Shown here in pieces: positions 36,311-40,850 of a DNA stretch of 60,600 bases. Position 1 is the first letter of the stretch; every line of letters starts with the position of its first letter. The translations under genes and the position numbers were made by a program. The DNA comes from Bacteroidota bacterium (GTDB lineage Bacteria; Bacteroidota; Bacteroidia; Flavobacteriales_F; PHOS-HE28): contig JAFDZF010000140.1 in the NCBI GenBank assembly GCA_018267055.1, forward strand, positions 1 through 60,600, in the 5' to 3' direction. The notes under the pieces were generated by a model. That model was not told where the DNA came from, ran no database searches, and was given only the letters and a program-made list of their open reading frames with translations.

Positions 36311-37615
36311 CTACGCGGTCTTGCGCACCGGGTAGGGCGTCGAGCGCAGCTCGTACATGGTGCCGGGCACCGGCAGCAGGTCCACCGAGGCGTTCAGCTG
36401 GTCGGCCAGGGTGTGGATCAGCTCCATGCCCAGGCTTTGCGGCTTCTCCCAGCGGCGGCGGTCGGGGAGGCCTACGCCGTCATCGCCCACGCGGAGGTTC
36501 AGGCCGCTCTCCGTGCCGCTGAGGTGCACGGTGATGGTGCCCTGCTCGCGTCCCTGGAAGGCGTACTTGAAGCTGTTGCTGATCACTTCATTGATGATCA
36601 GGCCCAGCGGGATCAGCGTGTCCACGCCGAGCGTCTTCACCCGGATGTCCACGTCCATCTTCAGCTTCACGCGGATGTTGTAGGCGCTCACCAGGTCGCG
36701 CACCAGGCTGTCGAGGTAACCGCTCACGCCGATGTTCGCCAGGTCCTTGCTCAGGTAGGTCTGCTCGTGCACCAGGGCCATGGCGCCCACGCGGTTGATG
36801 CATTCGTTGAAGAGCTCGAGCATCTTCGGGTCGCTCACCTTGTCCGTCTGGAAGCGGATGAGGCTGCGGACGATCTGCAGGTTGTTCTTCACGCGGTGGT
36901 GGATCTCCTTGATCATCACCTCCTTCTCCTCCTTGCTGAGCATGGTCTCGCGCAGCTCGCGGTTGGTCTCCTCCAGGTGCCGGCTCGTTTCGCTCAGCAG
37001 GGCGGAGCGCTCGCGGCTTTGCACCAGCAGGCGGCGCGTCATGCCCACCAGCAGGGCGAACACCACGGCGAACATGCAGGCCAGGAAAAGCAGCGTCTGG
37101 GCCTCGTCCCAGTGCCCGCTCAGGATGCTGGTCTGCGCCACGAGGCCCTGCTCGTGCACGGTGCGCACGGCCCCTTCCACGTGGTCGCGGGCGCGTTGCA
37201 GCAGCAGGGCGAAGACGGCTTCGGAACGGTGCGCCGCGCCGGCGTCCACGCTGCCCTTCACCACCTCCTGGTGCAGCGAGTCGCAATGGTGCAGGGTGCC
37301 TTTCAGGCGCTCGTGGAGGCTGCCGATGCTGGGCTCGTTCCCGTAGCGTTCGGTGATGCCGTCCAGGGCGGCGTTGGTGCGCTGGAGCTCCTGCGTCCAG
37401 TTGTGCTGGCCGGTGTTCACGTCCACGCGGTGGGCCAGGCCCAGCTGGTCCACGGCCCCGTGGAGGCGGCTCAGGCGGTCCAGCAGGCCCACCTGCTCAC
37501 CGATGCGGTCCTGCACCTTGCGGGCGCGCGACACCAGGGCGATGTCCCAGGCGATGAAGAGGAGGGCGAGGAAGGCGGCCACGAAGGGCCAGATGCGCCA
37601 GCTGGATGCGTTCAA
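36311..37615 (-). CDS. Membrane sensor histidine kinase, HisKA_2/HWE type
   Basis: 434 residues from a TTG codon at 37615 (MNASSWRIWPF). Two membrane helices (about 8-26 and 160-180) enclose a periplasmic sensor region of about 130 residues, a CHASE3-like four-helix layout. Residues about 215-240 contain E-I-H-H-R-V-K-N-N-L-Q, the HisKA_2 phosphoacceptor, then an ATPase domain with N-E-V-I-S-N-S-F-K-Y-A-F and D-D-G-V-G-L-P. No response regulator is adjacent; the nearest response regulator genes are about 2.4 kb away at 40054-40850 on the same strand. Confidence 0.9.
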   Translation of the reverse strand: MNASSWRIWPFVAAFLALLFIAWDIALVSRARKVQDRIGEQVGLLDRLSRLHGAVDQLGLAHRVDVNTGQHNWTQELQRTNAALDGITERYGNEPSIGSLHERLKGTLHHCDSLHQEVVKGSVDAGAAHRSEAVFALLLQRARDHVEGAVRTVHEQGLVAQTSILSGHWDEAQTLLFLACMFAVVFALLVGMTRRLLVQSRERSALLSETSRHLEETNRELRETMLSKEEKEVMIKEIHHRVKNNLQIVRSLIRFQTDKVSDPKMLELFNECINRVGAMALVHEQTYLSKDLANIGVSGYLDSLVRDLVSAYNIRVKLKMDVDIRVKTLGVDTLIPLGLIINEVISNSFKYAFQGREQGTITVHLSGTESGLNLRVGDDGVGLPDRRRWEKPQSLGMELIHTLADQLNASVDLLPVPGTMYELRSTPYPVRKTA

Positions 37616-38304: not shown

Positions 38305-38312
38305 TAGATTTG
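38305..38312 (+). promoter_or_regulatory. Putative -7 element TAGATTTG
   Basis: Exact TAnnTTTG, 18 nt before the ATG at 38331 of the NYN-cold-shock protein. Confidence 0.58.
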
Positions 38313-38330: not shown

Positions 38331-39281
38331 ATGATGGTCCCAAACAAGCAAGCGAACCCCGCCCTGAAGGTCGGTGTGTTCTATGATGGCAGCTACTTCA
38401 CCCACGTCAGCAACTACTACAACTACGTGCATCCCCACCGCCGCCGATTGCACATCGGGGGGCTGCACGATTTCATCAAGCACATGGTGGCGGAGCGCGA
38501 AGGCACCCGGCCGAACCTGTGCCACATCATCGATGCGCACTTCTTCCGCGGCCGCTTCAGCGCCAAGGACGCCAACGAGAAGACCAACCAGCTCTACTAC
38601 GACCGCGTCTTCGACGACGTGCTGATGTACAACGGGGTGCAGACGCACTACCTGCCCGTGAAGGACCTGATGGGCCGCAAGCGCGAGAAGGGCATCGACG
38701 TGCTGATGGCGCTGGAGACCTATGAGCTCTGCATGCTGAAGCGCTACGACGTGGTGGCCCTCATCGCCAGCGACAGCGACCACGTGCCGCTGGTGCGCAA
38801 GATCCACGCGCTGGGCTGCAAGACCATGCTGCTGGGCTGGGACTTCGAGTACGTGGAGGAATCCAGTGGCGAGACGCAGACAACGAAGACGAGCACCGAC
38901 CTCTGGAACTCGGTGACCTACCCGCTGGAGATGGCCGACCTGATCGAGGAAGGCCTGCGCGAGAACGATGAGCCGGTGCGCGACATGTTCGTGCTGAAGG
39001 AGTCCGGTCCCCGCGACCCGGAGGCCGACCGCCCGCTGGTGAGCATCTCCGACTACTCCAGCGAGGAGCGCTACACGGGCGAGATCATGAGCCTGCACAA
39101 CGGCTACGGGTTCATCCGCTTCCCGGACAACAACGTGTTCTTCCTGCACGACGACCTGGTGGACATCGAGTTCAGTTCGCTCGCCGTGGGCGAGGAGCTG
39201 GAGTTCAATGTGACCACGAACAGCCGCGGGCAGCGGGTGGCCAAGCACATCAAGCGCGTGTCCGACCTGGTCAGCCGCTGA
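38331..39281 (+). CDS. NYN-domain protein fused to a C-terminal cold-shock domain
   Basis: 316 residues; a second ATG at 38334 is possible. Residues about 13-190 form a NYN (PIN-like) ribonuclease fold: G-V-F-Y-D-G-S-Y-F with Asp19, K-G-I-D-V-L-M-A-L, then A-S-D-S-D-H-V-P-L-V, the usual acidic active-site set. Residues about 245-310 are a cold-shock domain with Y-G-F-I-R-F (RNP1-like) and N-V-F-F-L-H-D-D-L (RNP2-like). NYN nucleases cut structured or modified RNA; a cold-shock module could supply RNA affinity. It has its own promoter-like element and terminator, so it is a single-gene transcript. Confidence 0.85.
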   Translation: MMVPNKQANPALKVGVFYDGSYFTHVSNYYNYVHPHRRRLHIGGLHDFIKHMVAEREGTRPNLCHIIDAHFFRGRFSAKDANEKTNQLYYDRVFDDVLMYNGVQTHYLPVKDLMGRKREKGIDVLMALETYELCMLKRYDVVALIASDSDHVPLVRKIHALGCKTMLLGWDFEYVEESSGETQTTKTSTDLWNSVTYPLEMADLIEEGLRENDEPVRDMFVLKESGPRDPEADRPLVSISDYSSEERYTGEIMSLHNGYGFIRFPDNNVFFLHDDLVDIEFSSLAVGEELEFNVTTNSRGQRVAKHIKRVSDLVSR

Positions 39282-39300: not shown

Positions 39301-39331
39301 GAACGCCCGCCCTGCGCGGGCGTTCGCTTTT
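39301..39331 (+). terminator. Rho-independent terminator
   Basis: A 10-bp stem (39301-39310 with 39316-39325, loop CCTGC) is followed by GCTTTT. It terminates the NYN-cold-shock gene and lies just before the convergent kinase gene. Confidence 0.88.
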
Positions 39332-39335
39332 CCGG

Positions 39336-40061
39336 TCAGGCGGGGAGGGGCAGCCGTACGGTGAAGGTGGCGCCCTGGCCGGGCCCGGGGCTGGTGGCGT
39401 CCAGCGTGCCGCGGTGCCCCTGGGCCCAGCGGCGGGCGCGGGCCAGTGTGCCGCGGGCCTGCATCTCGCCATCGGTGCTCCGCGAGGAGAGCAGGGCGTA
39501 GCGGACGAACACACGGCCCAGGTCCACGTCGGTGAGGCCCACGCCGGGGTCCTGCACCGCCGCCACGGCGTGGCCCTTGTAGGTGCGCAGCGTCACCCGG
39601 ACGCACGCGCCGCGGGGCGAGAACTTGCTGGCGTTGGAGAGCAGCGCATCGAAGAGCTGCTCGAGCAGGTGGGCGTCGCCCTGGACCGTGAGCGCCTCGG
39701 GCCCCTCGACCTCCACCGTCTGCTGCTTCTTGTCGAACCGGAAGGCGAGGCCCTGCACCGCCTTGGCGATCAAGGCCCTCAGTTCCACGGGGGCCTGCTG
39801 CACCTGGGCGGGATCGCGCGGCACGCGGAAGTCGTCCATCAGCCGCTCCACCTCGGCCTGGCCGTTGAAGAAGTTGCGCTCGGCGAAGGCGAGCACCTCC
39901 TCGCGTTCGGGGCCGTCGGGCAGCTCGCGGACGAGGCGCAGGGCCTCCCACAGGGCGCCCATGCGGTTCTTCAGGTCGTGCGCGAAGGTGTGGAGGCGCT
40001 CGTTGCGGGCCTCGTCGGAGGAAAGCGGGTCGGGGCGGCGCGTGCGGCCGGGCTCATCCAT
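39336..40061 (-). CDS. Soluble histidine kinase-like protein
   Basis: 241 residues from the ATG at 40061, which overlaps the upstream response-regulator gene by 8 nt; the ATG at 40088 lies deeper in that gene. No membrane helix or sensor domain is visible. Residues about 18-30 (E-R-L-H-T-F-A-H-D-L-K-N-R-M-G-A-L) are a phosphoacceptor H-box, followed by an ATPase domain with D-A-L-L-S-N-A-S-K-F-S and G-V-G-L-T-D. The C-terminal G2-type loop is G-P-G-Q-G-A-T-F-T-V. The input must come from a partner, perhaps the coupled response regulator. Confidence 0.87.
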   Translation of the reverse strand: MDEPGRTRRPDPLSSDEARNERLHTFAHDLKNRMGALWEALRLVRELPDGPEREEVLAFAERNFFNGQAEVERLMDDFRVPRDPAQVQQAPVELRALIAKAVQGLAFRFDKKQQTVEVEGPEALTVQGDAHLLEQLFDALLSNASKFSPRGACVRVTLRTYKGHAVAAVQDPGVGLTDVDLGRVFVRYALLSSRSTDGEMQARGTLARARRWAQGHRGTLDATSPGPGQGATFTVRLPLPA

Positions 40062-40422
40062 GGGCCACCAACATGCGGTGCAGCACATTGTTCAAGCTGT
40101 CGGGGTCGATCGGCTTGAGCAGGTAGTGGCAGCCCTTCATGGCACGGATGCCTTCCACGATGTCGGGCTTGGTGCTGGCGGTAAGGAAGACCACGGGGAT
40201 CGGGTCCGTGCGGTGGATCTCTCGCGCGAGCTCGAGGCCGTTCTTATCGCCTTTCAGGTAGACGTCCATGATGATGACGTCGGGCCGGTCCTGCTTCAGG
40301 ATCGCCTCGGCCTCTTCGCTGCTGCGCGCAGTGCCCATCACTTCGAACCCCATCTGCTCCAATTGCAGACGGTAGCCGAACGAGATGATGGCCTCGTCCT
40401 CGATGATCAGGATCTTTTTCAT
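40054..40422 (-). CDS. Single-domain response regulator (CheY-like)
   Basis: 122 residues. Receiver marks: I-I-E-D-E-A acidic pair, D-V-I-I-M-D-V-Y (phosphoacceptor Asp), V-F-L-T-A (Thr switch) and L-L-K-P-I-D (Lys). There is no output domain, so it works by protein-protein contact or phosphotransfer. The end overlaps the kinase start at 40061. A second receiver gene lies 17 nt upstream, forming a receiver-receiver-kinase operon. Confidence 0.92.
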   Translation of the reverse strand: MKKILIIEDEAIISFGYRLQLEQMGFEVMGTARSSEEAEAILKQDRPDVIIMDVYLKGDKNGLELAREIHRTDPIPVVFLTASTKPDIVEGIRAMKGCHYLLKPIDPDSLNNVLHRMLVAHG

Positions 40423-40439
40423 GGGAGAGCCCTGCGAAG

Positions 40440-40850
40440 TTATGCACGCATACGTTGCTCGTGGTCATGTTCGATCCGCTCGAACTCCTCCACGCTGAGC
40501 GCCTTCTCCACATAGCCGTTCACGCTGGCCAGCCGGTGGGCCATGTCCATGTCCAGCGGGCGGTTGCTGCTGGAGCACATGATCACCGTGGTGCCCCTGC
40601 GGGGAAGCAGCCCGTCGCGCTCGCAGCTCTCGAGGAACTCGAAGCCGTTGGTGCCGGGCATGTTGATGTCCACCAGCAGCAGGTCGGGCCGCTCGCTGGT
40701 GCCGTGTAGGTGGCTGAGGGCGTCGTCCGCGCTGAGGAAGGTGGTCAGCCTCCCGGAGAAGCCGGCCTTCTTCAGCATCAGGCGCGTGATCAGGTGATAA
40801 TCGTCCTCGTCATCCACCATCATGATGTGCTCGATGAGTTCCCCCCCCAT
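40440..40850 (-). CDS. Single-domain response regulator
   Basis: 136 residues. Receiver features are M-V-D-D-E-D-D acidic pocket, L-L-L-V-D-I-N-M-P-G phosphoacceptor Asp, V-I-M-C-S-S-S switch region and Y-V-E-K-A-L Lys. The switch residue is Ser, which is allowed. There is no output domain. It lies first in the three-gene signalling operon and 68 nt downstream of the Kef-type antiporter on the same strand. The last 20 residues extend past the fold as a charged tail. Confidence 0.9.
   Translation of the reverse strand: MGGELIEHIMMVDDEDDYHLITRLMLKKAGFSGRLTTFLSADDALSHLHGTSERPDLLLVDINMPGTNGFEFLESCERDGLLPRRGTTVIMCSSSNRPLDMDMAHRLASVNGYVEKALSVEEFERIEHDHEQRMRA

Follow-up and report, generated by a model that had tools for sequence, protein, structure and literature searches.

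The NYN-CSD gene and its flanks

By 'the window' we mean the whole 60,600-nucleotide stretch of DNA analysed here, positions 1 to 60,600 of contig JAFDZF010000140.1 in the Bacteroidota assembly GCA_018267055.1. On its forward strand, at positions 38331 to 39281, lies a gene for a protein of 316 aa plus stop (ATG at 38331, stop ending at 39281), in which an NYN nuclease domain is joined to a C-terminal cold-shock domain (CSD), and which we call NYN-CSD. Upstream, on the same strand, the element TAGATTTG (38305–38312) fits TAnnTTTG, which we take to be the -7 element of Bacteroidota promoters. Across the window and 26 loci at 69–85% identity (69–100% with the window included), such a motif stands no more than 45 nt from the ATG in 17 of 27 cases, a count in which L084 was taken at a far-upstream start and scored as a miss; 500 Markov simulations gave 0.14 such cases on average and 2 at most. 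Scanning the region upstream of the gene for a sigma-70 consensus returned no site. Beyond the stop codon, an inverted repeat read directly from the forward strand, GAACGCCCGC-N5-GCGGGCGTTC (39301–39325), makes a GC-rich hairpin followed by the T-rich tail GCTTTTCC; a terminator scan placed a terminator-like core at 39308–39322, and as judged from its sequence the repeat is probably an intrinsic terminator. A first, sequence-only reading of this DNA had credited the gene with a promoter-like element and a terminator of its own, and both hold up, the first as a motif of Bacteroidota type that recurs among relatives and the second as a hairpin with a T-rich tail.

By Pfam, the neighbouring genes encode a HisKA_2 histidine kinase (36311–37615), a DUF4468 protein, a HATPase protein (39336–40088), two response regulators (40054–40850) and a Na/H exchanger. 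The kinase, HATPase and response-regulator genes are all on the strand opposite to NYN-CSD, and an operon with these two-component genes was rejected on the grounds of strand and of the gene's own promoter motif and terminator.

Two domains joined in one protein

The NYN nuclease domain core occupies residues 13–170 (38367–38840, forward strand) and matches PF01936 in a Pfam scan with an E-value of 1.2e-12 and 49 bits, against a curated cut-off of 24.2. Its predicted catalytic residues are D19, D123, D148 and D150, and it carries the motif HFFRGR at residues 70–75. The CSD follows at residues 251–302 by Pfam match (39081–39236, forward strand), or about 241–313 by structural match, and scores below the curated cut-off of 27 for PF00313 (E 5.4e-5, 23.4 bits). 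Between the two domains runs a variable interdomain linker of about residues 227–243 (39009–39059, forward strand), which is gap-rich in alignments and predicted with low confidence (pLDDT < 50 at residues 227–229 and 233–238).

Homologous proteins were aligned with the window protein in three sets: A1 (20 loci and the window), A2 (the window and 44 of 80 loci, which represent 80 of 368 confirmed relatives) and A3 (35 loci and the window). Scanned one by one, all 45 members of A2, the window protein included, matched both families at E <= 0.01, with a best CSD E-value of 1.5e-12 among them; because every member matches NYN and CSD alike, the fusion appears to be real and common to the family. 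An AlphaFold model built from A2 reached a mean pLDDT of 87.8 and a pTM of 0.69, and its stretches with pLDDT < 50 were the linker and the C-terminal end. The NYN part of the model matched VPA0982 (PDB 2qip) with Z 17.5 over 160 residues (rmsd 2.9) and the NYN domain of MARF1 with Z 15, while residues of about 241–313 matched solved CSDs with Z of 8.4–12.0 among the matches listed. Taking family alignment and predicted fold together, we regard the CSD of the window protein as genuine despite its sub-cut-off Pfam score. The claim of the sequence-only reading that NYN and CSD sit together in one 316-residue protein is thus borne out by model matches to solved structures, and the search for this architecture across genomes that it had suggested recovered both domains in 45 of 45 aligned members.

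Other assignments gave little. The Pfam scan of the window protein at E <= 10 listed NYN and CSD alone and found no OST-HTH/LOTUS domain; the YacP/Rae1-type profile NYN_YacP likewise gave no match up to E 10, a range in which the HMMER filters drop most matches above about 0.1. NCBIfam returned below-cut-off matches only.

Solved or described proteins resemble NYN-CSD in part. VPA0982 shares the NYN fold, but its aspartates are spaced 78/23 (D14, D92 and D115 in the accessible part of PMC11346440, where the protein is described as uncharacterised), and the 162 residues of its solved chain include no CSD. MARF1, or Limkain b1 (PDB 6fdl, 5yaa), also has the NYN fold and likewise joins it to RNA-binding domains; it differs in being eukaryotic, in carrying RRM and LOTUS (OST-HTH) domains, not a CSD, and in an Asp spacing of 68/26 (D358, D426, D452). 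A survey of OST-HTH proteins (Anantharaman, Zhang and Aravind 2010, PMC2848206) states, in its accessible part, that some bacterial OST-HTH/DUF88 (LK-nuclease) proteins carry further S1/cold-shock-type OB folds. The NYN-CSD architecture may therefore have been seen before in that survey, where the single sentence concerned is ambiguous as to the architecture meant, and where OST-HTH proteins are the subject, a domain for which the window protein gave no match. The sequence-only reading had allowed that its case would weaken if this were a wide and fully characterised family: wide it is, but we found no paper in the open-licence PMC literature that characterises the function of an NYN-CSD protein.

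Residues kept across the family

The acidic residues noticed at first sight are conserved, and the aspartate then placed near residue 19 is D19 exactly. In A2, D19 and D148 never vary (45/45), positions 123 and 150 each hold Asp in 43 of the 45 members, and 41 members have Asp at all four; the replacements, once by Glu and once by Asn at each of the two positions, fall in L116 and L127 (D123) and in L120 and L137 (D150). The loss of acidic residues in homologs that would have spoken against a nuclease was not seen in this alignment. Spacing between the three main aspartates is 104/25 in 39 rows of A2 and 105/25 in the other six, and the signature H[FYW]F[RK]GR occurs in all 45 rows and in all 12 rows of alignment A4. 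Seven basic residues are also invariant in the 45 members (H34, R39, H46, H70, R75, R92 and H106), of which H70, R75, R92 and H106 stay invariant when CRISPR-type and other diverged NYN rows are added, whereas H34, R39 and H46 do not.

In the CSD, the RNP1-like and RNP2-like segments of the sequence-only reading were located at residues 257–262 (NGYGFI) and 269–274 (VFFLHD), and their key Gly and Phe positions were found to be fixed: G258, G260, F261, N268, F270 and F271 do not vary in any of the 45 members. Within RNP2, residue 272 is His in 35 of 45 members and Leu in the window protein, so RNA binding by the window CSD may differ from that of its relatives.

A core gene of the genus, patchy across the phylum

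Of the 45 genomes of the genus, 41 carry NYN-CSD, the window's own among them, as do 28 of the 30 that are of good quality, and the other copies are 70–84% identical to it; the genus sample is also the entire sample of its family and order. Across Bacteroidota, near-full-length matches to a whole-protein profile (E <= 1e-80) were found in 22 of 395 genomes. At E <= 0.001 the number of genomes with a match rises to 173 of 395, and the weaker matches among those listed are confined to the CSD part or to a small piece of the NYN, some of them with stops. The gene is patchy across the phylum and not a phylum-wide core gene. Named records among these 80 of the 368 relatives include Bacteroidales, Saprospiraceae, Spirosoma, Siphonobacter, Kapaibacteria and Ignavibacteria. 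Four loci 46–75% identical to the window protein are labelled Phycisphaerales (L079), Chryseobacterium gleum (L080), Bacillota (L087) and Rikenella microfusus (L095), and may be mislabelled or mis-binned MAGs.

Within the genus the surroundings are kept. Conservation was scored over 29 genus loci, the window's own excluded, taken from the best 30 of the 41 genomes with a match, and over six local genes, the Na/H exchanger being left aside. Each of the five neighbours is present in 26–28 of these 29 loci, some of which are cut by contig ends. Twenty-five loci have five or all six of these genes (L011, L014, L021 and L027 have fewer and are not counted), and in 24 of them, L029 being the exception, no gene is better conserved than NYN-CSD; its median identity is 76%, against 42–71% for the five neighbours. 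Within its genus the gene is chromosomal, syntenic and slow to evolve.

Elsewhere the gene keeps other company: hisB-like genes in Spirosomataceae, hemC/hemD-like genes in relatives of Lewinella (by eye), and in one Bacteroidales clade a hisS-like gene (by eye) and RtcB. A universal genomic partner was rejected on this account, neighbours being clade-specific only across loci L087–L140, and these loci yielded no neighbour common to the clades that points to a substrate. In five members of the Bacteroidales clade (L094, L098, L107, L115 and L134), a convergent RtcB-like RNA ligase gene adjoins NYN-CSD, Pfam-confirmed for L115 only.

Searches of phage and plasmid record collections gave no NYN-CSD match. 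One IMG/VR contig (L141, 4974–5912) encodes a 41% identical NYN-CSD whose neighbours are a phage integrase and an EcoRI-type methylase, possibly a mobile copy. With one such contig and no match in phage or plasmid records, the idea of a phage or plasmid gene was rejected.

A CRISPR branch of the same NYN subfamily

Used alone as a query in a class-wide search, the NYN part matched 59 of 395 genomes. At locus L172 of one of the genomes studied (G603), a 205-aa NYN protein is encoded ahead of CorA, Cas6, Cas10/Cmr2 and Cmr3 (Pfam or NCBIfam). A 252-aa gene between NYN and CorA matches no profile and shows a DHH-like motif by eye, as expected of the published NrN; a CRISPR array and RT-Cas1-like and Cas2-like genes (the latter two named by eye) lie downstream. 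This type III-B operon spans L172 (7394–15575) and L177, with a gene in the NrN position and an NYN of the window protein's subfamily. Its content agrees with that described for the type III-B system of B. fragilis in the accessible part of PMC11346440, where nyn lies beside cas6, corA and nrn. Residues D13, D118 and D143 of the L172 NYN are exactly those named there, and they align under D19, D123 and D148 of the window protein. From these residue numbers and the gene content we infer that the L172 NYN is the counterpart of the B. fragilis NYN.

The L172 and window NYN domains are 36% identical. As far as sequence can place it, the window NYN belongs to a Bacteroidota subfamily, marked by the HxFRGR signature and an Asp spacing of 104–105/25, that also holds the type III-B CRISPR NYN. 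The window protein and the CRISPR NYN of Bacteroides type III-B are alike in subfamily, in HxFRGR and in the positions of the triad, with an Asp spacing of 105/25 in the CRISPR protein and 104/25 in the window. In contrast, the CRISPR NYN has 205 aa and no CSD, sits in Cmr operons and is rare, whereas the window protein has 316 aa and a C-terminal CSD, and its gene belongs to the core set of the genus. This kinship, and the contrast between core gene and CRISPR gene, come from this analysis.

An NYN of this kind occurs in 5 of 201 sampled genomes of G603's family. It lies among clear Cmr genes at L172, L186 and L187, and near a weak Cas10-like match (E 2.9e-4) and repeats at L189, while L188 has no Cmr-type genes within 18 kb of it. 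The CRISPR branch is without a CSD and mostly found in Cmr operons. No GYGFI-type CSD motif was found in ORFs of at least 60 aa at L172, L177, L186–L189, L173 and L174, a search that recovered the motif at 80 of 80 NYN-CSD loci as a control and that a diverged CSD could escape. In the tree, the four CRISPR NYN rows form one clade (100/100) with L188 and L173, the latter an NYN without a CSD and without the type III-B cas genes within 16 kb; the root, and with it the direction of change (CSD lost or gained), is unsettled, two outgroups on very long branches giving a long-branch warning.

Unlike the CRISPR NYN, the window gene is not encoded in a type III CRISPR operon, as judged from the 80 loci, the window and its own genome. 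Relatives of 11 cas and accessory genes of one type III-B system, NYN itself aside, were found neither near the 80 loci nor in the window, and a simple exact-repeat scan found no CRISPR arrays there. The Cas10/Cmr2 profiles Cmr2_N and TIGR02577 had no match in the window genome at E <= 0.001, of which Cmr2_N is weak for such Cas10: on the L172 Cas10 it scored 22.6 bits and TIGR02577 scored 114.

A diverged relative at L175 (6989–8002; 338 aa) has a C-terminal extension without a CSD match at E <= 0.01; a CSD match is present at L176 and L180. When the NYN-CSD profile was compared with PDB sequences, one of the best matches was chain H of 9arw (E 1.5e-8), a 'CSD domain-containing protein Cmr6' whose CSD is N-terminal. 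Type III-B systems may bring NYN and CSD together once more, each on its own protein; a literature search on the CSD in Cmr6 found no usable paper.

A proposed RNA-cutting enzyme outside CRISPR

We propose, with a probability of about 0.7, that NYN-CSD is a metal-dependent ssRNA endoribonuclease kept as a housekeeping gene. According to the accessible part of PMC11346440 (Chi and White 2024), the CRISPR NYN of B. fragilis is an Mn-dependent, sequence-nonspecific ssRNA endonuclease that loses its activity in D13A; its role in crRNA trimming is proposed there and not demonstrated. The NYN of MARF1 is a demonstrated endoribonuclease (PMC6294520, accessible part). Because both of these relatives cut RNA, we infer by analogy that NYN-CSD would cut ssRNA as the CRISPR NYN does, with the window protein having a similar Mn-dependent activity.

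In such an enzyme, D19, D123 and D148, together with D150, would bind a divalent metal ion, which in turn would activate a water molecule to cut the RNA. The CSD would hold single-stranded RNA on its aromatic RNP surface with little sequence preference, and the flexible linker could let it feed the bound RNA to the NYN active site, giving the protein an RNA clamp of its own, a part for which the CRISPR form would depend on Cas6/Cmr. Invariant basic residues may line the RNA path, some in common with the CRISPR NYN (H70, R75, R92, H106) and others in NYN-CSD only (H34, R39, H46). In the cell, exposed single-stranded RNA would be cut or trimmed, whether in mRNA decay or at RNA ends left bare by RNPs. 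The parts given here to the CSD and the basic residues, like the housekeeping role itself, are presumed from this picture.

Core-gene status in the genus agrees with a housekeeping role; the patchy spread in the phylum agrees with it less well. The window genome encodes RNase E/G and RNase Y (RNase J gave no match in it at E <= 0.001), so the need for another endonuclease is uncertain, and on the same grounds a stand-in for missing housekeeping endonucleases was rejected. Also counting against the housekeeping reading are its nearest characterised kin, which works in CRISPR and not in housekeeping, the presence of NYN-CSD in 22 of 395 genomes, the replacement of D123 and of D150 in 2 of 45 members each, and Leu at position 272.

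That closest characterised NYN found, a type III-B CRISPR protein, suggests instead a defence enzyme, either a stand-alone anti-phage RNase or a dedicated crRNA trimmer, and the IMG/VR copy beside an integrase and a methylase leans the same way, as do weak PADLOC matches of the window protein to CSD_V (E 1e-6, CSD part) and HEC-09 (E 1.3e-4, NYN part). We consider this very unlikely, given a gene held by 41 of 45 genus genomes in a kept neighbourhood, the absence of type III-B relatives and arrays near the 80 loci or in the window (a neighbour search that covered one CRISPR type), a genome in which neither Cmr2_N nor TIGR02577 finds a match at E <= 0.001, and phage and plasmid records without a match. 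The sequence-only reading had offered an RNA-targeting nuclease, perhaps for stress-related RNA decay or defence: the nuclease is well supported by both domains, by the conserved aspartates and by the ssRNA endonuclease activity published for a member of its NYN subfamily (PMC11346440, accessible part); defence, on the grounds just given, is not supported for this gene.

Also very unlikely, in our view, is an RNA-binding regulator, weak as a catalyst, in which the NYN fold serves binding alone. We know of no assayed member of the NYN-CSD family, which counts in favour of such a regulator, as do the Glu and Asn found in place of D123 or D150 in a few members; but D19 and D148 are invariant, 41 of 45 members keep all four aspartates, and published kin with the same triad are active (PMC11346440, accessible part). 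It is likewise very unlikely that the adjoining two-component genes (36311–37615, 39336–40088 and 40054–40850) control NYN-CSD or have it as their output, since for all their constancy in the genus loci these genes lie on the opposite strand from a gene with its own promoter motif and terminator, and give way in other clades to the hisB-like, hemC/hemD-like, hisS-like and RtcB neighbours.

If NYN-CSD is such a housekeeping endoribonuclease, it would be a widely kept RNA-processing enzyme of Bacteroidota with concrete residues to test, and through it a CRISPR accessory nuclease is linked to a family of chromosomal proteins; the kinship makes the origin of the CRISPR NYN directly testable. One tentative scenario, possible though on balance doubtful, is that Bacteroidota have an RNA-trimming enzyme whose chromosomal, housekeeping form is NYN-CSD, and that the type III-B CRISPR NYN was recruited from the NYN-CSD family by loss of the CSD, with Cas6/Cmr supplying the RNA-binding platform. 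Were this true, the general task of NYN-CSD would be to trim RNA ends that RNPs leave bare, and CRISPR would have adopted a trimming activity that the host already had.

The genome that holds the window encodes a second NYN protein of another type (L001, contig C132), which matches PF01936 with 127.7 bits and has a C-terminal part that looks OST-HTH-like by eye.
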